Source: a bacterium
GTDB taxonomy: Bacteria; Hydrothermota; DG-26; JAUXAN01
DNA: 62,518 nucleotides
Reading direction: 5' to 3'
Assembly (NCBI GenBank): GCA_030619885.1
Contig: JAUXAN010000009.1
Span: forward strand, 1 to 62,518
A program made the translations under genes and the position numbers. The notes below the pieces were generated by a model that searched no databases, was not told where the DNA came from, and saw nothing but the letters and a program-made list of their open reading frames with translations. Positions 14,472 through 60,965 of this stretch are shown here, one piece after another; the stretch's first letter is position 1, and the number at the start of each line of letters is the position of its first letter.

Positions 14472-15434
14472 ATGGCTCGTGGTTTAAGAATACAATTTTC
14501 GGGTGCGTTTTATCATATTATAACCCGTGGAAATGAAAAGAGACCAATTTTCATAGATGATTCTGATAGGAAAAAGTATCTGGAAATCATTGGGAATTAC
14601 AAAAGGGACTTTGGTTTTTACCTGTACTGTTATACATTGATGACAAACCATAATCACCTTTTGATAGAAACACCCATGGGGAATATTTCCAGAATTATGC
14701 TTTGCGTAAATACAAACTATGCAGTCTATTTCAATAGACGGCATAATCGGGTAGGGCATCTATTTCAAGGAAGGTACAAGAGCATCGTTGTAGATAAGGA
14801 GGCTTACCTGTTGCGGTTACTGAGGTATATCCATTTAAATCCAGTGAGAGCGAAAATGGTAAGGAGCCCCAAAGAATATAAATGGAGCAGCCACAGGGTA
14901 TATATTAGTGGTAGAGATACATCAGGATTGATAGACACAGAGCCAGTTTTAGGGCGTTTTGGGAATACTAAAGAGATGCAAATTACAGCTTACAGAGACT
15001 TCGTAGAATCTGAAATAGGAAGTGAACACCCTGGATTTGAGGTAAAAGAAGGGCAATTTTTAGGTGATGACGATTTTATAAATAATGTAAAGAAGAATAG
15101 AATCCGAGACATTACTGAGAATAAAGAGATTCTACAGAGGTTTATGACTTTTGACGAGATATTGAGTGGTGTGGCTCGATTTTACAAGACAGAGGAATCT
15201 GAGATAAGATACTCAAGGGGGCACAAAAGTGTGCTCCTTCGCTACATAACGATATGGTTTGCAAGGAAATGGACAAATATGACCCTAAAAGATATAGGGG
15301 AGTGTTTTGGAGGGATGCCACATTCCGGCGTCTTCTTTGGTATTAAGAGAGTAGAGAGGGAGATGTGTACTAATAAAGAGTTTGCAAAAAATATCCAACG
15401 ATTAGCCAAAGTTTTGACAAAATTGAAGGGTTGA
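14472..15434 (+). CDS. REP-associated tyrosine transposase (RAYT, Y1/TnpA-REP) with DnaA-like C-terminal domain
   Basis: A single-strand DNA transposase of the HUH/Y1 class, 320 residues. It begins MARGLRIQFSGAFYHIITRG; the HUH motif is in MTNHNHLLIETP (about residue 57), and the catalytic Tyr is in LRYIHLNPVRAKMV (about residue 116), followed by EYKWSSH, all typical of RAYTs. Residues about 215-310 resemble the DnaA domain IV helix-turn-helix (TLKDIGECFGGMPHSGVFFG), an arrangement found in some transposases of this group. It is intact and has a strong leaderless promoter. Known RAYTs bind and help spread palindromic REP sequences, which matters here because the window is full of palindromes. 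A broken relative lies at 55804-55912. Confidence 0.95.
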   Translation: MARGLRIQFSGAFYHIITRGNEKRPIFIDDSDRKKYLEIIGNYKRDFGFYLYCYTLMTNHNHLLIETPMGNISRIMLCVNTNYAVYFNRRHNRVGHLFQGRYKSIVVDKEAYLLRLLRYIHLNPVRAKMVRSPKEYKWSSHRVYISGRDTSGLIDTEPVLGRFGNTKEMQITAYRDFVESEIGSEHPGFEVKEGQFLGDDDFINNVKKNRIRDITENKEILQRFMTFDEILSGVARFYKTEESEIRYSRGHKSVLLRYITIWFARKWTNMTLKDIGECFGGMPHSGVFFGIKRVEREMCTNKEFAKNIQRLAKVLTKLKG

Positions 15435-28066: not shown

Positions 28067-28093
28067 AAGTAAATTTCTAAGGAGGTGCATATT

Positions 28094-31000
28094 ATGAACA
28101 TGAAACAGAGTATTTTGATATTTTTGATATTGAGTTTACCAATTTGTGGCAATGCGCTGACCGTTACTATTGATTCTATAGTTCCAAACCCTTTTTCTCC
28201 AAATGGAGACGGGATGCTCGATTCCGCTAAGATTTACTGTACTGTTTCTGATACCCATACTTTACGGTTATATGCATTCTTCGGTGACCCTTTTGATGCA
28301 GAATGGGTCGTAGGCCCATTTTCTGCGGGTAGCTACACTTATTCCTGGGGGGGGGCTGGTTATCCTTCTGGAACTTATAGAACTTATATTTTTGCAAGGG
28401 ATACATCGGGAGTGGACCACCTCAGCGCCGATAGTTATATCACCATAGAGTTGCAGAAACCTTTCATATCGAATGTATCCGCTTCGCCAAATCCGTTCTC
28501 TCCTGATGGGGATGGGAGGAATGATGTGACACATATAAAGTATACCCTGTCAGAACCCTGTAGTATGGTTACTATTGTGTTTGAAGGCACGCCACCAGAT
28601 ACACATATAAGTTATAATTTGGGTAGTGGTGTACAAGACCTTACCTGGTATGGTGCAGGTTATCCTGATGGCACTTACAGGTTTACAATCGACGCAATGG
28701 ATCCTGCGGGTAATTCTGCAGACCAGGTTGATGGAGAGGTTACCATAGATACAAAACCTGCAAATATTTATAATGTCTCCGTATCACCCAATCCATTTAC
28801 TCCAAATAACGATGGGATAAAGGACTACTGCTATATAGATTTTTACTGTGACTCTACCCATCCTGCTGAATGGGATTCTGTATTTGCACCGGATAGTATC
28901 CTTGGCTATATCATCGTGCAGGATGATACATCAGGTCTTTATTCACTTGTCCACACATTCCCGCCATTCCCGGTCTATCTATATCTGGTCGCTGAACAGA
29001 AATACGACTATAATATTACAGTGACACTGACCTATTTTTCTAACATATATGTTACTACAGATATACTTGCTGAATCAGATACAACCGATACCTATCGAGT
29101 TGGAACCCTCACCAACAAGTTTGAAAATATTACGGTCAAAAAAGTAGAAGGCGGTCTGCCAGGTGATTCCATCAGGGTCTACTGCTTCACAGGGAATGCA
29201 AGGGTGACGATTTATAATGAAGACGGTAGTCCCCAGGGGACAAATTGGAATTTCTGGGAAGAATTCAGAGGTGATGGTTGTTACCATGCTATATGGGGAC
29301 CAGATGGCATTGCAGATGGCAATTATATCTACCGTATAGTCGTAGAGGATGAAGCGGCAAGTTTGATAGAAGAGTCGGGCATAATTGAAGCAAATTCAAC
29401 GCCAATCTATATATCCGATGTGAGCGCTAACCCGACTACCATCTCTCCAGCCGATACAAATGGTCTTTATGATGTGAGCAAAATCTTATATAAAATTTCA
29501 GAGCCTGGTATCGTTACAATAAAGGTATACAACTCCCCTACTGTATTCGACTCGACAACCCTCGTGCGTACCCTTTTAGATGGGATTGAACAGACTGAAG
29601 GTGCACATTCTGTTTACTTTGATGGAAAAGATTACAGCAATGATTTTCTTGCCCAGAATAGTTGCAGCACCTATACTTATGTGATTACAGTTATAGACCT
29701 CATAACTCCTGATGAGGTGGTTCGGGCTGAAGGCGATATTACGGTTGATAACCTACCACCAGCTCGACCAAGTTTTCAGTCAATTACTACCCCTACGAAT
29801 CAATCTACAATTACGGTAGATGGTGGGGCTGAAAAAGGCGTGTTTGTTGAACTGTTCGTAAATGGGAGTTCAATTGGGGTCACAACTGCGCACGGGGTTT
29901 TCGGTTTTTTCAGCTTTGATGTTGCTCTGACAGAGGGGCCAAATTGGATATATGGGTCTGCTATAGATTCTGTCTACAATGTGAGTGCACCATCGGATAC
30001 GAAAGATGTATTTTTAGATGCTACAGACCCTGTGGTTAGTTTGGTCTTTCCTTCAGATGGTTCTTTCAGAAACGACTCTATTCTTGGCAGTGTGTATGCG
30101 GTAATTTCTGATGGTGCATTGGGTTGTGGTATAGATTTGAACGGATCCTACATAAAGGTGTTGGATGTTCCTGGTAATGTAGTTCGCCAGGCCCCGGATA
30201 CTCTGGTGTTTGTATTCACAGATACCCTGAAAGACACCGTAGGAAACATATACGACGGCACCTATACGATACAGGTTATACCAGTAGATTCTGTTGGGAA
30301 CGATACGACCTATACTTTTTCCTTCTTATACGACACGAAAGAACCCACATCCTCTCCAACCCCCCCTGACTCGGCTTTTGTGAATGAGTTGAATTCTGTA
30401 TCAGCGGTGATTTCAGATGATGGTTCAGGTGTAGATATAGATAACTCTTTCATCTACTTAATGGATTCAGATACCAATTTTGTGCCAGGTAGTGTTTCCG
30501 ACGATGGGGTATCAGAAGTCTTCTACACCCCGGATCCACTACTCGATACCCTTGGCTTTGAAGATGGCAGATATTATATAAAAGTAGAGGCGCGTGACAA
30601 TGCCAATAATACAGATTCGATGTTCACCACCCTGATTTATGATACGAAAGCACCAAGAATCGCATGGTCTTATCCAAAAGAAGATACCGCTGTTGGGTCG
30701 CCTATTTATAAGGTGAAGGTTGTGGTTACCGATAGCTCTGATGTTTTTCCTGGTATTGCAGTTTCAGGTAAGGATTTTTCAAAATCTTCTATAAAGCTTC
30801 TTCGTGAAGATTATAGTTGGGTATCTACTGGAATAAAGACTACCAGCGGTGATACTCTGATATGGGAGTTGAACGATCCATTGGATGTAGATGGCAAATA
30901 TTATATATACACCAAACTTTATGATAATGCATCCAACTTCTCTGAAAATTATATTGGGTTCTACTATGATGTACAGAATCCAGTGATTACAAATGTCATA

Positions 31001-34000
31001 CCTTCTGATGGTGCGAATGTGAGAACTCAAATATCAGAGGTGAAAGCAACACTCTATGATGCTGGCAGCGGTATAGATGCTGGTTCTTCTACGATAATGT
31101 TGTTGAGTGCAGATTCGGATACCGTGCCGGGAAACCAATCTACAAAGAGTGATACGATAATATTGACATTACTGAATCCACTCACCACATATGGGACAGA
31201 TGATGGTAGGTATTATGTGGCGGTGAAGGCTTATGATATGGCAGGATGGAGTGAGGATGATACGACGACCTTCATATACGATACCAGACCGCCAGTAGTA
31301 GATTCTACCATTCCTAAAGATGCTGTATGGGTGAATGCATCATCCTTTAACGATACGGTATATGCGGCGGTGAGAGATACGATATCTGGTATTGCGGTTT
31401 CAGGGATAGATACCCTCGCATCAACGATAGAGTTGTTGAAAGGCGATGAAGGGGACCCGGGAACCCCATCTAATTCAGGAGATAGTCTGCTTATATGGGC
31501 ACTCAGTGCGGGATTGGCGACAGACGGGACTGACGATGGAGAATATACTATAAAGGTGAATTTGAAGGATAATGCAGGCAATTCATCTACCATAACCAAC
31601 AAGTTTAACTACGATACACAAACGCCAACTATATCCAACTTTTCTATATCACCACCATCAGGACAGACAGAGGTTACGGAAAATGATAATATAACTATCA
31701 GCGGAATGGTCTCCGAATATGCGACTGTAGTTGCCGAAAGCCTCATCCAGTATAAAGATATTGCGGCGACAGATGATACAGTTACTTCATCGGTTACAGG
31801 AATAAACATTGGAGTGGATGGAACAATCTCAGGCACGGTGAATATAGGGGCACTTACAGATAGTACAAAATCTATAAGATTATTATTGGTGGTGAGCGAC
31901 AGGGCAGGGAATACCACTTCTATTATATATTCCGACTCTTTGATTGCGGACAGGACGGCTCCTGTTATATCATCGTTTGTGCCATTCGATAATGCTATGG
32001 TTAATACCCAGATCACATCTATCTCTGTAACTCTTACGGATGATGGCACAGGGGTAGACGCAGATTCTTCTACAATAAGGTTAGAGGGTCCGAGTGTGAG
32101 GGTTGCTGGCAGCCAGTCGAATGTTGGAAACACATTTACCTGGACATTGACAGTCCCTCTGTTTACCGACGGTTCTGATGATGGTCAATATAGTATAATA
32201 GTGAGGGCATTCGATAAGGCGGGTAATGTAGCCGTTGATACATCCTCTTTCATCTACGATACAAGACCTCCGTGGGTTGTCTTGACGGACCCGCTAAACA
32301 ACGCGACCGTTACAGATACCATAGACACGGTCTATGCGATTGTATCTGACAGCGTATTTGGAGTATCGGCATGGTCAGGGATAAACTTCTTCCTCTCGGA
32401 GACGAACCTGCTCAGAGAAAATGATACGAAAGTTCCCGGAAGTGGGACAACGAATGGCGATACGCTCTTCTGGGTGTTAAACACCTCCCTCGATGTCGAC
32501 GGGAATTATAAACTTCGGACGATACTTTGGGATAATGCAACAAACTGTGATACACTCATCTCATCGTTCGTTTACGACCTCAGTGACCCTGTGGTTAAAA
32601 GTATGCTGCCGCAGGGTAATGTGAATGTACTCGATACCGTTGTAGCCGTCGTTGCAGATCTGGGCAGCGGCATAGATTTCGATTCGACCACGATAGTTCT
32701 TGAAGGACCTTTTGGAATAGTATCGGATTCGATGTGGAACGATGGTGATTCGACCATCTATTTCTCTCCCGACCCTAAACTGGACAAGAATGGTGCACAC
32801 GATGGCAAATATTGGGTATATGTAACCGTGAGTGATGGGGTAGGGCATACGGTTTCAGATACTTCAAGTCTAATCTATGATACCTGGCTGCCGAGTATAG
32901 ACACTACCTACCCTTACCAGAATGAATTAGTGGGAACACCATTGAATTCTGTCTATGCTGTTCTTTCAGATACGAATCCTGTGACAGATAGTGTGTCTGG
33001 TGTTGACTTTATCTTTTCTATGGTGGAACTCTACGGGCCCGATGGTAATAGGGTGCCAGGAAGTAAATCTGTAAGCGGTGATACGATAAAGTGGACGATG
33101 AGTTCACCACCGGAGGTAGATGGTGACTATCAGATAAAGGTGAAGAAGTATGATAGGGCAAAGAATGCTGACACCACTTATGTGCCTTTCAGTTATGATA
33201 TACACAATCCATATATCGTGTGGCCATTGGGATTCAGTAATACTTTCGTATCGATCCGTCTGCGAGATGTGACTGGAGGAGGCGGAATAAGTGCAGCAGA
33301 TATTGAAGTTATAAATCCTTATGATGAATATCTGACGATGTGGGACGAACCTCTAACATTCCAGGGAGATACCGCTACAATCAAATCTTACTTTTTGGTT
33401 CCTCTCAAAACCAATGGTGCAGATGATGGAAGATATACTGTTTTAATCTATGGGTGGGACCATGCAGGGCATACACTTGTTCCACAACCTGATACCTGTT
33501 ATGTTAGCTACGATAATATTGCACCCTTCATAATTTCGAGCGACCCTGATTCTGGGGCGGTTGGTTACCATATTGGAGATTCTGTCGGCTGTTATATTTC
33601 GGACAAGTTTGCAGGTGTTCAATTCACCTCTGGTATCTGGTTCGATTCTTGCGATATATGTCTTAAATATTCTAATGGGACAGGCGTTCCTGGATGGGAT
33701 ACCTATATTGATAATGGAGATGGGACTGGATACCTCTGGTGGCACATTGACTCTGAAACAAATCTTCCTGAAGATAATTATACTATGGAAGTGGCTGTTA
33801 TAGACCACAGCAGGAACAGAAAATTGTATGTCATCCCATTTGAGGGTACGAGTGCAGTTCCTGAGGTTATAGCCACAGTCCCTCCTGACGGCGGTGCGAC
33901 CGATAGCCTTACATCGATAGAAGTTCTAATAAAAGATTATACAGGAACAGGCACAGATACTATCGCTACTTCTGTCAGACTTGTCGGTCCTGATGGTCCT

Positions 34001-37000
34001 GTGCCATCAAGTTTCAGTGAATTGAAGAGTGGGACAGTCGATACTCTTGTTTACAGCGTGGATACTACTCTTGCAACCGATGGTTCAGATGATGGTTCAT
34101 TCACGATTACCGCTATCCCCTATGCTGTCAATGGGAAATATGGTGAAATCTATCAATCAACTTTCATCTACGATACCCAGGAACCTGTGGTGAAATCCAT
34201 TACCCCTCAAAATGGAAGTTTTGTAAATAGTTTGACATTGGTATCCTCTGTAATATATGACCAGTTCTCAGGTATAGATTTCACTGCATCAACCGTCTCT
34301 TTAAGAGGACCCATAGGAACGGTTCCGGGTGATTTAGCGAATGATGGGGATTCGGTAATATCGTTCACACCTTCCCCACCCCTTGAGACCAATGGCGGTG
34401 ATGATGGGAAATACACGATAACTGTGACTGCATACGATATGGCAACACACTCAAGTACTGACTCTGCAACTATAATCTACGATACCTGGCTTCCATGGGT
34501 GAGTGAAGCATACCCTGCTCAAGATGATATAGTAGGAACTCCGCTCAGTTTTGTCTATGCGGTTATCACAGATTCGAATCCGAACACGCCCGATATTTCA
34601 GGTATAGACACACTAAAATCATGGATAAAACTCTACAACTGGAATAATGAGGTAAAGCCGGGTAGTATGGTGATAAGTGGTGATACAATTAGATGGGAAT
34701 TTCCACCGCTGACAAACGATGGTGCTTATACGACCAAGATAAAGATATTCGACCTGGCAGGAAATTCCAATACCATAGATGTGCCATTCTACTATGACCT
34801 CACAGCGCCTTATGTAGACTACACCACCCCGGCAAACCATTCTAATATTACTACAGAAGTGAGTGAAGTGACGGCTATCATTCGTGACCCGGGTGGTGCA
34901 GGGATAAACTTTGACTCTACTGTAACTTACATCGAATTGATAAAATCCCCCTCGCATTTTATTCTGGGGTTACTATCGGATGATGGAGATTCTACCTTAA
35001 CCTTCACACTTTTAAAACCGCTTCTTGATAACGGTGCAGATGATGGATTCTATAAAATTTTAGTATACGGAGAGGATAATACAGGTAGACCTCTTCTCCC
35101 GACAAATCCGGATACCAACTACTTCATCTATGATAATATAGAATCGTCCATCACCGAGAGTGAACCCGATTCAGGTGAGATGATAGATACCTTAGTATGG
35201 GTAGATGTGAGCGACATTTTCCCTGGCGTCGATTCAATTTCAGGAATTGATTTTAATGCCTCTACAATATCGTTAATTGGACCCAGCGGTAAGGGTGTTC
35301 CTGGGTATCAGGTGAATCTGCCTGGTGCGGGTGACCGGACAGGAACTTTGCAGTATAAGATCAATTCGGGTGCAGAAATACTGACAGGATGGTATCAAAC
35401 TGTTGTCCATCTGCTCGATAAGGCGGGTAATATAACAGATTCTACAATATCGTTTTATGGAATCAGCAGGATTCCTGATGTAGTTTCTACCGTACCTGAA
35501 GAAGGCGACTTTGTGAACTATCTTGATGAGGTGAAAGCACTCATAGACCGAAAAGGCTTGGCAATTGATACCTCTCTATCCGTCATTCAAATTTCCGGAG
35601 CCGATACTGTCATAAGCGAAACGAAAAGTCTACTTGGAGACACACTTAAATTGAATTTCGACTCATTGCCGCAGGATGGGAGTATGGATGATGAGTGGGT
35701 GATAACGGTAACACCTGTCGCTGGCGGGAAGACAGGGGCAACTGAAGATGTGCACTTCGTGTACGATACGCGTCCACCTTATATCACTGCATTCGTCCCT
35801 CCACCAAATGATACTATCGGTCATAATTGGCCACAAATAATTGTTACTGTGGAAGATTCTTCGTTATCAGGTGTAGATTTCGACGCATCCACTGTAAACC
35901 TGTTTGGCACGCTATGGAATCCAGTTGCAGGAACGCAGTCAACTGACTATGTAAACAAAATATACTTCACACTCTCTTCACCCCTTTCAGATACAGGATG
36001 GTATCATATCGTTGCGGATATATACGACCGTGCAGGCAACACTCGTATAGATACATCCGACTTTTACTTCACGACCGCAATCCTACCCGAAATTGTTCGT
36101 ACGATTCCTTTAGAGGATACTGTCCAGTATCAATTGACTGAGGTAGCCTGTCTGTTGATAAGTAATAGTGGGCAACCTATAAACAAGCTCACATCAACGA
36201 TATATTTAGTTGATACATCATCCGATACCATTCCAGGCAGTAGAGTGTGGAGTGGTGATACGATTAGATGGGTTCTATCAACGCCCCTTGCAGATGATGG
36301 CTCTGATAATGGGCTGTATACCGTGTTGGTTCATGCGGTTGATGAAAAACCCTGTATTACCGACGGTTCATTCGGTTTCTTATATCTATATGATGCGGTG
36401 CCACCTGGCATGCCTTATCTTGTAACATTAGTTCCTGATACAACATCAGAGGGTATAATAGATACACTAAAAGGTTGTGCAGAACCTCTGTCACAGGTGA
36501 AGTTGCTTAATGTCTTTAATGATTCTATTATCCACTCAGATAGTGTGATTGCAGCGGGTGATAGCAGCTTCACTTTCTTAGATATACCGCTGCTTACAGG
36601 TATAAATACACTCAAACTTACAGCAACAGATGTCTTTAGTAATGCATCAGATACACTCATAAAGATCATATATCAGTTTCCTCAGCCTTTAATTATCAGC
36701 ACCTTCCCTGCTGAAGATACGACCATAACAGAGCAACTCACCAGGATATACGCCATAGTTGAGGATACCATATCGGGCATAGATGAAGATTCTTCTACTA
36801 TAGTATTATTAAATAGCGTAAACGATACAATCCCGGGGAGCAAATCGTGGTCTACTTTTGTTGATACGGTCTCAGGTGATACGATGCCAATGATAATATA
36901 TACCCTCACGCAATCTCTTGCGAACGATGGAACAGCAGATGGTAACTACAATGTGAGTATGAAGATTGTGAATCAGGCAAAAGTTCCGAGATATCGTGAT

Positions 37001-37594
37001 TATAGTTTCACCTATATATGTGACGAGGTACCCCCGTTTCTTTGGGTTGGTGGAATACCTTCATCCACTATACATGATTCAGTTGAAGTTACTGTTGTGA
37101 CTGATAGCAGTAGTTTTGTCAGACTAAGTAATCTAAATGTTCCGACATACAGCGATACCACTACTGCGGTGAAGGATACCTTGATATTTGAGAATGTACC
37201 GCTTGTTATGGGGACAAATATCATAGTGGCAACATCCGCTGACGCATCGCAGAATGTTTCTTCAGACACGGTGAGTATCACACGCGCATACCCGACATTT
37301 GCAATTCAAATTCCTATGCCGTTCAATGACGATAGCCCGAACTTTATCGTGTATCTGCCAAAACCTGGTGAGGTATCGATAAAACTCTTTAACCTTGCAG
37401 GTGAATTCGTTGCAAAATTACCAAGAGGCACGCCACATACAGGTATTGCAGGAAGGAATATAATTCCATGGATAGATTTCAAAAACGAATCTGATAAGGA
37501 AGTAAATAATGGACTCTATATCTACATCATTGAAGTAAAATATGAAGGAGGAACAACTGAAAAGAAGAAAGCACTCTGTGCAGTGATAAGATAA
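28094..37594 (+). CDS. Giant Ig-repeat surface protein with type IX-like C-terminal sorting domain
   Basis: A 3166-residue exported protein. Start at ATG 28094, eight bases after GGAGG; the upstream GTG overlaps the RBS. After the signal peptide come FlgD/CHU_C-like segments with PNPFSPNGDG near residue 31, PNPFSPDGDG near 131 and PNPFTPNNDG near 232. Roughly twenty Ig-like repeats of 90-110 residues follow; recurring blocks are FIYDTRPP or FYYDLTAP at the boundary, GSGID..S..I.L in the middle and DDGKYTI.V.A.D.AGN before the next boundary. The last 90 residues form a sorting domain (VSIKLFNLAGEFV, NGLYIYIIEV) ending ALCAVIR. Likely an adhesin or fibre. A run of nine G at 28347-28355 near codon 85 could cause frame slippage. 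A PorV-like gene follows after 17 bases. Confidence 0.9.
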   Translation: MNMKQSILIFLILSLPICGNALTVTIDSIVPNPFSPNGDGMLDSAKIYCTVSDTHTLRLYAFFGDPFDAEWVVGPFSAGSYTYSWGGAGYPSGTYRTYIFARDTSGVDHLSADSYITIELQKPFISNVSASPNPFSPDGDGRNDVTHIKYTLSEPCSMVTIVFEGTPPDTHISYNLGSGVQDLTWYGAGYPDGTYRFTIDAMDPAGNSADQVDGEVTIDTKPANIYNVSVSPNPFTPNNDGIKDYCYIDFYCDSTHPAEWDSVFAPDSILGYIIVQDDTSGLYSLVHTFPPFPVYLYLVAEQKYDYNITVTLTYFSNIYVTTDILAESDTTDTYRVGTLTNKFENITVKKVEGGLPGDSIRVYCFTGNARVTIYNEDGSPQGTNWNFWEEFRGDGCYHAIWGPDGIADGNYIYRIVVEDEAASLIEESGIIEANSTPIYISDVSANPTTISPADTNGLYDVSKILYKISEPGIVTIKVYNSPTVFDSTTLVRTLLDGIEQTEGAHSVYFDGKDYSNDFLAQNSCSTYTYVITVIDLITPDEVVRAEGDITVDNLPPARPSFQSITTPTNQSTITVDGGAEKGVFVELFVNGSSIGVTTAHGVFGFFSFDVALTEGPNWIYGSAIDSVYNVSAPSDTKDVFLDATDPVVSLVFPSDGSFRNDSILGSVYAVISDGALGCGIDLNGSYIKVLDVPGNVVRQAPDTLVFVFTDTLKDTVGNIYDGTYTIQVIPVDSVGNDTTYTFSFLYDTKEPTSSPTPPDSAFVNELNSVSAVISDDGSGVDIDNSFIYLMDSDTNFVPGSVSDDGVSEVFYTPDPLLDTLGFEDGRYYIKVEARDNANNTDSMFTTLIYDTKAPRIAWSYPKEDTAVGSPIYKVKVVVTDSSDVFPGIAVSGKDFSKSSIKLLREDYSWVSTGIKTTSGDTLIWELNDPLDVDGKYYIYTKLYDNASNFSENYIGFYYDVQNPVITNVIPSDGANVRTQISEVKATLYDAGSGIDAGSSTIMLLSADSDTVPGNQSTKSDTIILTLLNPLTTYGTDDGRYYVAVKAYDMAGWSEDDTTTFIYDTRPPVVDSTIPKDAVWVNASSFNDTVYAAVRDTISGIAVSGIDTLASTIELLKGDEGDPGTPSNSGDSLLIWALSAGLATDGTDDGEYTIKVNLKDNAGNSSTITNKFNYDTQTPTISNFSISPPSGQTEVTENDNITISGMVSEYATVVAESLIQYKDIAATDDTVTSSVTGINIGVDGTISGTVNIGALTDSTKSIRLLLVVSDRAGNTTSIIYSDSLIADRTAPVISSFVPFDNAMVNTQITSISVTLTDDGTGVDADSSTIRLEGPSVRVAGSQSNVGNTFTWTLTVPLFTDGSDDGQYSIIVRAFDKAGNVAVDTSSFIYDTRPPWVVLTDPLNNATVTDTIDTVYAIVSDSVFGVSAWSGINFFLSETNLLRENDTKVPGSGTTNGDTLFWVLNTSLDVDGNYKLRTILWDNATNCDTLISSFVYDLSDPVVKSMLPQGNVNVLDTVVAVVADLGSGIDFDSTTIVLEGPFGIVSDSMWNDGDSTIYFSPDPKLDKNGAHDGKYWVYVTVSDGVGHTVSDTSSLIYDTWLPSIDTTYPYQNELVGTPLNSVYAVLSDTNPVTDSVSGVDFIFSMVELYGPDGNRVPGSKSVSGDTIKWTMSSPPEVDGDYQIKVKKYDRAKNADTTYVPFSYDIHNPYIVWPLGFSNTFVSIRLRDVTGGGGISAADIEVINPYDEYLTMWDEPLTFQGDTATIKSYFLVPLKTNGADDGRYTVLIYGWDHAGHTLVPQPDTCYVSYDNIAPFIISSDPDSGAVGYHIGDSVGCYISDKFAGVQFTSGIWFDSCDICLKYSNGTGVPGWDTYIDNGDGTGYLWWHIDSETNLPEDNYTMEVAVIDHSRNRKLYVIPFEGTSAVPEVIATVPPDGGATDSLTSIEVLIKDYTGTGTDTIATSVRLVGPDGPVPSSFSELKSGTVDTLVYSVDTTLATDGSDDGSFTITAIPYAVNGKYGEIYQSTFIYDTQEPVVKSITPQNGSFVNSLTLVSSVIYDQFSGIDFTASTVSLRGPIGTVPGDLANDGDSVISFTPSPPLETNGGDDGKYTITVTAYDMATHSSTDSATIIYDTWLPWVSEAYPAQDDIVGTPLSFVYAVITDSNPNTPDISGIDTLKSWIKLYNWNNEVKPGSMVISGDTIRWEFPPLTNDGAYTTKIKIFDLAGNSNTIDVPFYYDLTAPYVDYTTPANHSNITTEVSEVTAIIRDPGGAGINFDSTVTYIELIKSPSHFILGLLSDDGDSTLTFTLLKPLLDNGADDGFYKILVYGEDNTGRPLLPTNPDTNYFIYDNIESSITESEPDSGEMIDTLVWVDVSDIFPGVDSISGIDFNASTISLIGPSGKGVPGYQVNLPGAGDRTGTLQYKINSGAEILTGWYQTVVHLLDKAGNITDSTISFYGISRIPDVVSTVPEEGDFVNYLDEVKALIDRKGLAIDTSLSVIQISGADTVISETKSLLGDTLKLNFDSLPQDGSMDDEWVITVTPVAGGKTGATEDVHFVYDTRPPYITAFVPPPNDTIGHNWPQIIVTVEDSSLSGVDFDASTVNLFGTLWNPVAGTQSTDYVNKIYFTLSSPLSDTGWYHIVADIYDRAGNTRIDTSDFYFTTAILPEIVRTIPLEDTVQYQLTEVACLLISNSGQPINKLTSTIYLVDTSSDTIPGSRVWSGDTIRWVLSTPLADDGSDNGLYTVLVHAVDEKPCITDGSFGFLYLYDAVPPGMPYLVTLVPDTTSEGIIDTLKGCAEPLSQVKLLNVFNDSIIHSDSVIAAGDSSFTFLDIPLLTGINTLKLTATDVFSNASDTLIKIIYQFPQPLIISTFPAEDTTITEQLTRIYAIVEDTISGIDEDSSTIVLLNSVNDTIPGSKSWSTFVDTVSGDTMPMIIYTLTQSLANDGTADGNYNVSMKIVNQAKVPRYRDYSFTYICDEVPPFLWVGGIPSSTIHDSVEVTVVTDSSSFVRLSNLNVPTYSDTTTAVKDTLIFENVPLVMGTNIIVATSADASQNVSSDTVSITRAYPTFAIQIPMPFNDDSPNFIVYLPKPGEVSIKLFNLAGEFVAKLPRGTPHTGIAGRNIIPWIDFKNESDKEVNNGLYIYIIEVKYEGGTTEKKKALCAVIR

Positions 37595-38694: not shown

Positions 38695-38818
38695 TTCGTT
38701 AAGCGTTTAAGGGTAACGAAGCCCGTATCGTTTAGCGTCAATCGGTTACGTCAAAAAGACGATTCACATAGCCCTCAAACGAAACGGGCATCGTAACCGA
38801 TTAACGCAACCGAGTAAA
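38695..38818 (-). repeat. Dispersed structured element (ATCGGTTACGATGCCCG family), copy 1
   Basis: Read on the minus strand it starts ACTCGGTTGCGTTAATCGG, TTACGATGCCCGTTTCG, and ends ACGATACGGGCTTCGTTACC. Two other copies, both in the opposite orientation, are at 42700-42911 and 60867-60965. The GATGCCCG and CGGGCTTCG blocks can pair. It occupies most of the gap between the 5S gene and the EF-G-like gene. Confidence 0.8.
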
Positions 38819-40852: not shown

Positions 40853-40875
40853 TATTATTCGGGGACGCAGATGAA

Positions 40876-40904
40876 CCCCGTTAGATGTTTACTATCTAAC
40901 GGGG
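40876..40904. repeat. 29-bp palindrome CCCCGTTAGAT..ATCTAACGGGG with TGAA duplication
   Basis: Stem CCCCGTTAGAT/ATCTAACGGGG with a seven-base loop. It is flanked by TGAA on both sides (40872-40875, 40905-40908). It interrupts a dispersed repeat that would otherwise read GACGCAGATGAACGCAGATT. Confidence 0.85.
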
Positions 40905-41012
40905 TGAACGCAGATTGACAGGATTTTAACTATAAAGATATAATCAATTTCCCTTTCTCCTGTGCTTTAATCTGCGGATATCTGCGTCCTATTAAAATAT
41001 TTTTGATCTGAA

Positions 41013-42699: not shown

Positions 42700-42911
42700 T
42701 TTACAGTCGCTCGTTTAAGTTAACCCAGCACTTATGCATAGGTGCTGGGTTAATCGGTTACGATGCCCGCCCCGTTAGAAAACAAGCACTTCTAACGGGG
42801 CCCGTTTCGTCCTTCGGTGATGGAATCCGTCTTTTTAGATCGTTCTTCACATCCGTAACTGTTAACCGCTCCACGATACGAGCCTCGTCATCGTCAAACG
42901 ATTAACGAAAC
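42700..42911 (+). repeat. Dispersed structured element, copy 2, carrying two nested palindromes
   Basis: It starts TTTACAGTCGCTCGTTTAAG and ends CAAACGATTAACGAAAC. Compared with copies at 38695 and 60867 it holds two insertions. One is a 26-bp palindrome (42724-42749, core CACTTATGCATAGGTG) between TTAA duplicates; the other is a 31-bp palindrome (42770-42800, CCCCGTTAGA..TCTAACGGGG) between CCCG duplicates. With flanking dispersed repeats it fills the 450-base gap up to the tRNA-Ser gene; no gene is seen there. Confidence 0.85.
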
Positions 42912-60866: not shown

Positions 60867-60965
60867 TTTACAGTCACTCGGTTAAGTTGATCGGTTACGA
60901 TGCCCGTTAAACGTAACCTTTAAATTACAATACGGGCTTCGTCACCATTAGACACTTAACAAAAT
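60867..60965 (+). repeat. Dispersed structured element, copy 3
   Basis: It reads TTACAGTCACTCGGTTAAGT, TGATCGGTTACGATGCCCG and ends ATACGGGCTTCGTCACC plus TTAAC. This is the shortest of three copies and has neither of the palindromes present in the copy at 42700, so it provides empty-site comparison for the TTAA insertion. It lies between convergent amrS and rseC. Confidence 0.8.

Follow-up and report, generated by a model that had tools for sequence, protein, structure and literature searches.

How do palindromes too short (about 30 nt) to contain a gene come to lie between exact 4-bp direct repeats? The question is raised by three hairpins in the window, by which we mean the whole 62,518-nucleotide stretch of contig JAUXAN010000009.1. 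Two of them lie in one copy of a dispersed repeat (42700-42911, limits taken from an earlier note on this DNA), which forms an inverted-repeat pair with 38775-38808. The 26-bp CAGCAC hairpin, CCCAGCACTTATGCATAGGTGCTGGG (42724-42749, with one mismatched pair), is framed by TTAA at 42720-42723 and 42750-42753, and the 31-bp CCCCGTTAG hairpin, CCCCGTTAGAAAACAAGCACTTCTAACGGGG (42770-42800, + strand), by CCCG at 42766-42769 and 42801-42804, its target on the + strand being CCCG (YYYR). The third, the 29-bp hairpin CCCCGTTAGATGTTTACTATCTAACGGGG (40876-40904, - strand), lies between TGAA at 40872-40875 and TGAA at 40905-40908, its target on the - strand being TTCA (YYYR). This sequence is the commonest 29-mer that we found and occurs also in other families of the phylum and in other phyla. 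Re-reading the sequence at 42724, 42770 and 40876 bore out the three palindromes and their flanks as the earlier note had described them; its term "nested" does not fit the first two, which are separate insertions 20 bp apart. The same note had pointed to uninterrupted copies of the host repeats, and exact empty sites (GTTAATCGG, GATGCCCGTTTCG and GCAGATGAACGCAG) do occur elsewhere in the genome. The copy that it placed at 60867 (here the part at 60876-60908, which lacks both hairpins) is only near-empty, with TTGA in place of TTAA. For the CAGCAC hairpin the empty site GTTAATCGG is found in contigs L027, L028 and L031; for the CCCCGTTAG hairpin the partial copy at 38775-38815 (- strand) reads GATGCCCGTTTCG on the reverse strand, and GACGCAGATGAACGCAG is the empty site of the hairpin at 40876. 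Elsewhere in the window, a 3169-codon open frame with internal repeats (28085-37594, + strand) probably encodes a giant surface protein, and at both contig ends (83-120 and 62355-62518) the sequence runs into a 24-bp tandem repeat, ACCGAGTAAGACGAGGTGCTATGT, in inverted copies, within which the assembly probably broke.

The 29- and 31-bp hairpins belong to a family, F1, of the form CCCCGTTAGA-loop-TCTAACGGGG (mostly 29-33 bp), and the 26-bp hairpin to a second, F2 (CCCAGCACCTWTGCAWAGGTGCTGGG, 26 bp); a third, F3, has the form CCCCGCACC-N7-GGTGCGGGG. In the 2.46-Mb draft genome, F1 has 35 exact-arm copies, where a reversed-pattern control gave none, and F2 has five copies. Related families of 23-26 bp, CCCAGCAC.. 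and CCCCGCAC.., behave like F1. The hairpins have a stem of 10-13 bp with conserved CCC-ended feet and a free loop, and total usually 24-36 nt, sometimes 44-137 nt; elements of 44-137 bp have F1-type ends and the same kind of 4-bp repeat. Double hairpins of 44 to 70 bp (CCCCGTTAGATAGCATACCATTAGATAGTAAACATCTAACGGGG; L029:9967-10010, L203:3247 and L308:201-244) recur in several genomes and look like one F1 hairpin within the loop of another. Also present is a REP-like palindrome, GTAGGGAACAGGCATGCCTGTTCCCTAC (L037:14636-14663, L040:18623-18650 and others), with a classical GTAG foot and no 4-bp repeat. An integron attC-like arrangement, GTTRRRY...RYYYAAC, was considered and set aside: the F2 and F3 families do not have the motif, and its order in the hairpins is, we take it, inverted relative to attC.

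We asked how far the flanking repeats exceed chance. Among 154 distinct F1 copies drawn from this genome, its relatives and GTDB contigs, 64 had an exact 4-bp direct flank repeat, where random pairing of flank 4-mers predicts about 12; matches over other lengths were rare (three of 3 bp, two of 5 bp and none of 6, 7 or 8 bp), and apparent 6-bp repeats in one count proved to be a boundary shift. In 567 kb of the genome, palindromes with arms of at least 10 and CCC..GGG ends had the repeat in 23 of 45 cases; none of the 38 other palindromes did (p=3e-8), even with five boundary positions allowed to them. The five F2 copies all had it (TTCA twice, TTTA twice and TTAA once). Thus the 4-bp matches that the earlier note had seen in three places hold beyond chance. 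Copies of the host repeat without the hairpin, and with a single 4-mer, were found elsewhere in the genome for some 20 insertions of the families F1, F2 and F3, and the empty-site offset was -4 in every close match. The same is seen between genomes: the insertion in a gene at L030:10001-10029 is missing from the orthologous contig of a relative, L058, which lacks the 29+4 nt and aligns without a gap across the junction, and in RsmA 33 nt present in one Patescibacterium are absent from another. L058, a 6.4-kb contig, is binned as Aenigmatarchaeota; its DNA is about 90% identical to this genome, which makes misbinning probable.

These results bear directly on the reading that the hairpins are immobile terminators or REP-like structures whose flanking repeats are due to chance or slippage. 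True GTTAGC-arm terminator hairpins were indeed caught by our broad scan (Pontibacter, Prevotella and others), and such ordinary terminators, in cultured genomes, make up a minority of its matches. Because the orthologous site is empty, an immobile structure is refuted for these hairpins; the excess of 4-bp repeats, the empty sites in the host repeats, the lack of a T-run 3' of the window copies and the in-frame insertions in mutM, infB and rsmA argue the same way, and we regard this reading as scarcely credible. Insertion of tiny hairpins with a 4-bp duplication, as the earlier note had proposed, is strongly supported.

Long open frames (at least 150 codons) hold 32 of 108 distinct hairpins. 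The length plus four was divisible by three in 29 of these 32 copies, compared with 33 of the 76 elsewhere (p=4e-6). The inserted peptide is 11-12 codons long, of the form xPVR..SNGx or xPL(D/E)..LTGx, and the host genes include those for MutM, IF-2, RsmA and GAPDH. In a Paceibacterota GAPDH frame (L098:2964-3887), the hairpin peptide replaces about 35 residues of the NAD-binding domain.

The sites of insertion follow a rule. Flank 4-mers were YNNR on both sides, with R at -1 in 98% and Y at -4 in 95%, and the outer bases were complementary within the 4-mer (TNNA on 187 and CNNG on 67 sides, compared with TNNG on 15 and CNNA on 18); the commonest targets were TTTA/TAAA and TTCA/TGAA. The target is partly symmetric, (R)YNNR(Y). 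Insertion is polar: in 22 comparable events with a 4-bp repeat, the loop strand was concordant with the YYYR-oriented target in 21 and discordant in one (p=1e-5). Copies fetched afterwards agree in polarity, and one insertion in a virus contig has the opposite orientation. The one complete genome searched for a strand bias relative to replication held five hairpin copies. A single folded strand, whether DNA or RNA, has an inherent direction. In contrast, a dimeric double-strand transposase would be expected to insert an element in either orientation when its ends, as here, are identical over 10-11 bp. The 21:1 polarity therefore speaks for a folded single strand and against a double-strand DDE reaction of the symmetric kind.

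The earlier note had suggested a DDE-type transposase acting in trans, with a gene whose terminal repeats share the arms. On this account, the hairpins would be MITEs reduced to a minimum, derived from a DDE-type insertion sequence not seen here, the CCC-ended 10-bp stems serving as terminal inverted repeats, the cuts being staggered by 4 bp and the autonomous element rare or lost. The fixed length of the duplication and the partly symmetric target would fit, and the 44-137-bp elements, with the same ends and duplications, resemble ordinary internal deletion derivatives. Apart from the polarity, two ends bound by transposase would have little space in 24-36 bp, and no DDE gene with terminal repeats sharing the arms was found among 100 of 110 arm positions in this genome or in 1.4 Mb of related loci. 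Searches for an autonomous element at arm positions, at lone arms and between inverted CCC..GGG ends that had a 4-bp repeat and lay up to 4-6 kb apart did not find one, and gave just the 44-137-bp elements, mutated hairpins and chance pairs. Two candidates were discarded: L064 sits within an unrelated gene, and L126 consists of a pair of small insertions within and next to genes. In genomes that carry F1, the DDE_Tnp_1 loci end in other sequences, not in the hairpin arms. We surveyed five enzyme families (Y1_Tnp, DDE_Tnp_1, rve, RVT_1 and Cas1) in the 13 carriers, and of the two DDE families covered, DDE_Tnp_1 occurred in 8 (absent from 5) and rve in 4 (absent from 9); Cas1 occurred in 3. A DDE transposase is thus unsupported by the tests, and we consider a minimal MITE of this kind rather unlikely.

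The stem itself is maintained. At position 11, a pair inside the conserved arm, the bases were complementary in 100 of 108 distinct hairpins (shuffle mean 41, maximum 56), and pairing was kept through AT, TA and GC alternatives; variant arms with paired changes also occur, e.g. CCCTGTTAGATGTTTACTATCTAACAGGG in L112. That the stem is kept while its sequence changes indicates either that the folded strand matters or that palindromes are corrected during spread. Polarity and a compensated stem would also fit an RNA template, i.e. a small structured RNA copied into nicked targets by target-primed reverse transcription. RVT_1 was present in 0 of the 13 carrier genomes, which disfavors such retro-insertion, and we hold it to be very improbable.

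Of the five families, Y1_Tnp was the sole one in all 13 carriers. It was also present in 17 of 19 non-carriers, with a mean gene number of 6.9 in carriers and 3.3 in the 19 non-carriers (p=0.004). This genome has 14 Y1 matches in total, and the window encodes an IS200-like Y1 transposase of the RAYT type with a fused DnaA C-terminal helix-turn-helix domain (14472-15434, + strand; PF01797 + PF08299). The F1 hairpins were not found as cognates of the inspected Y1/RAYT loci, which had other hairpins and REPs, among them palindromes ATCCCACCCC..GGGGTGGGAT close to Y1 genes; F1 arms occurred in 3 of about 40 Y1 loci and never on both flanks. To our knowledge, Y1 transposition of the IS200/IS605 and RAYT kinds makes no target duplication, and the earlier note was right that RAYT enzymes are not known to make such repeats. 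Here, in contrast to IS200/IS605, occupied sites have the target 4-mer twice and empty sites once. TnpA-REP and IS200/IS605 enzymes work on hairpins of single-stranded DNA, the choice of site being guided by a tetranucleotide 5' of the palindrome (PMC8266576); this mode of action fits the polarity and the tetranucleotide, and does not fit the duplication.

We infer a single-stranded intermediate and propose that the palindromes are ultra-short non-autonomous mobile elements, moved in trans as a folded single strand, for which an HUH (Y1) transposase of the IS200/IS605-RAYT kind is only a candidate. In this scheme, the moving species would be a folded single DNA strand, and a trans-acting nuclease-ligase would recognize the stem and the tetranucleotide. 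Insertion would take place beside a TNNA or CNNG tetranucleotide, of which TTTA and TTCA are the most frequent (YYYR on the acting strand), leaving a copy of the 4-mer on each side of the hairpin, and a Y1-type enzyme, if responsible, would have to work so as to duplicate, or require, a matching 4-mer. We favor this scheme tentatively, at somewhat less than an even chance.

In roughly one copy out of two, the YNNR flanks differ between the two sides, mostly in the inverted order YYYR-hairpin-YRRR. Many of those in the phylum are descent copies of longer dispersed composite repeats, and others are single genic copies that are still in frame. Such flanks are predicted neither by simple duplication nor by a simple Y1 scheme; a flank brought from the donor site would, hypothetically, explain them. 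Two other sources were rejected. Palindrome correction would enrich perfectly inverted flanks, and these were not enriched (7 observed, 11 expected), and recombination between copies generally cannot account for the in-frame genic copies, though the GAPDH copy in L098 did lose residues. The second 4-mer may be made from the target or may be carried by the element itself; a test of the latter gave a weak correlation, confounded by copies by descent.

One orthologous site, with 45-bp flanks 98-100% identical between the two genomes, is occupied by a 29-bp F1 hairpin in a relative and by a 25-bp F3 (CCCCGCACC) hairpin here, framed in each case by TTTA on both sides. Likewise, the composite repeat CCACGAATCACATTCA-hairpin-CAGGTTAATCGAATG has either an F1 or a CCCCGCAC hairpin at the same position. 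Either the same sites were hit repeatedly or one hairpin replaced another. Both cases would suit a process that needs no dedicated transposase: a host nuclease or topoisomerase would make staggered breaks or nicks at which hairpin oligonucleotides are caught, or one hairpin would be traded for another at an existing hairpin site. The GC clusters of yeast mitochondria show similar behavior, and no transposase is known for them either (PMC4478555). The recurrence of identical 10-bp arms in many phyla implies a conserved sequence-specific recognizer, and we judge capture or exchange improbable. Our order of preference, given without confidence, runs from a Y1-like single-strand mechanism through a cryptic DDE element to capture or exchange.

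The class is widely distributed. A scan of one genome per bacterial or archaeal species, requiring exact arms and run on draft genomes, gave at least 116 stretches with an F1-class hairpin, mostly from uncultured lineages; Patescibacteria, Omnitrophota, Nitrospirota, WOR-3, Elusimicrobia, Phycisphaerae and others are among the matches listed. Of 100 genomes of the phylum that were searched, 13 have F1 hairpins, the present genome among them, with up to 34 copies, and identical 29-mers recur across its different families. Of 20 contigs from virus collections, four had the 4-bp repeat, and three of these four look like one insertion. Rfam held nothing relevant to the hairpins, and in the open-licence literature we found no description of the arm sequence as an element or of the hairpin class.

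Four known systems invite comparison. The hairpins resemble REP/RAYT and IS200/IS605 systems in being 20-40-nt, strand-polar hairpins in many dispersed copies with a tetranucleotide beside the stem and Y1 in all carriers. They differ from REPs in having YNNR flanks and no GTAG (or CGTC) foot tag, in their exact 4-bp direct repeats and empty sites, in lying away from the flanks of the inspected Y1 genes, and in recurring with the same sequence across phyla. With prokaryotic MITEs they share terminal inverted repeats, a target duplication of fixed length, the lack of autonomy and both intergenic and intragenic residence; unlike MITEs, they are 24-36 bp long and essentially all stem, insert with polarity and have no parent insertion sequence that we could find. 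By features, the GC clusters of yeast mitochondria (GC42) are similar: tiny hairpins with a conserved stem, a variable loop, short direct repeats, horizontal spread and no known enzyme (PMC4478555). GC42 elements are about 42 nt long, have AG/ACT repeats and reside in mitochondria, whereas the present hairpins have 4-bp TNNA/CNNG repeats and reside in bacterial chromosomes. Finally, Rickettsia palindromic elements (RPEs) also lie in frame within protein-coding genes, as do 29 of the 32 genic copies here. RPEs are about 150 bp long (PMC10969869), CGTC-tagged and known from Rickettsia (PMC3733652), as opposed to 29-32 bp here (24-36 bp across the class), YNNR flanks and many phyla.

No known enzyme accounts for the movement of these hairpins. 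They may represent an undescribed class of mobile DNA, a folded single strand of about 30 nt that is inserted in trans with a 4-nt TNNA/CNNG duplication, spreads between phyla, adds peptides of 11-12 residues to proteins and, once a site is occupied, can give way there to a different hairpin; we put this just short of an even chance. The hairpins would rank among the smallest mobile DNA units in bacteria, being almost pure stem, and they occur across many uncultured phyla, also within conserved genes, which they leave unbroken. An as yet unknown enzyme activity is suggested by them, and their signature (arms, 4-bp repeat, target rule and polarity) opens the long-standing problem of the spread of tiny palindromes such as REPs and GC clusters to direct tests.
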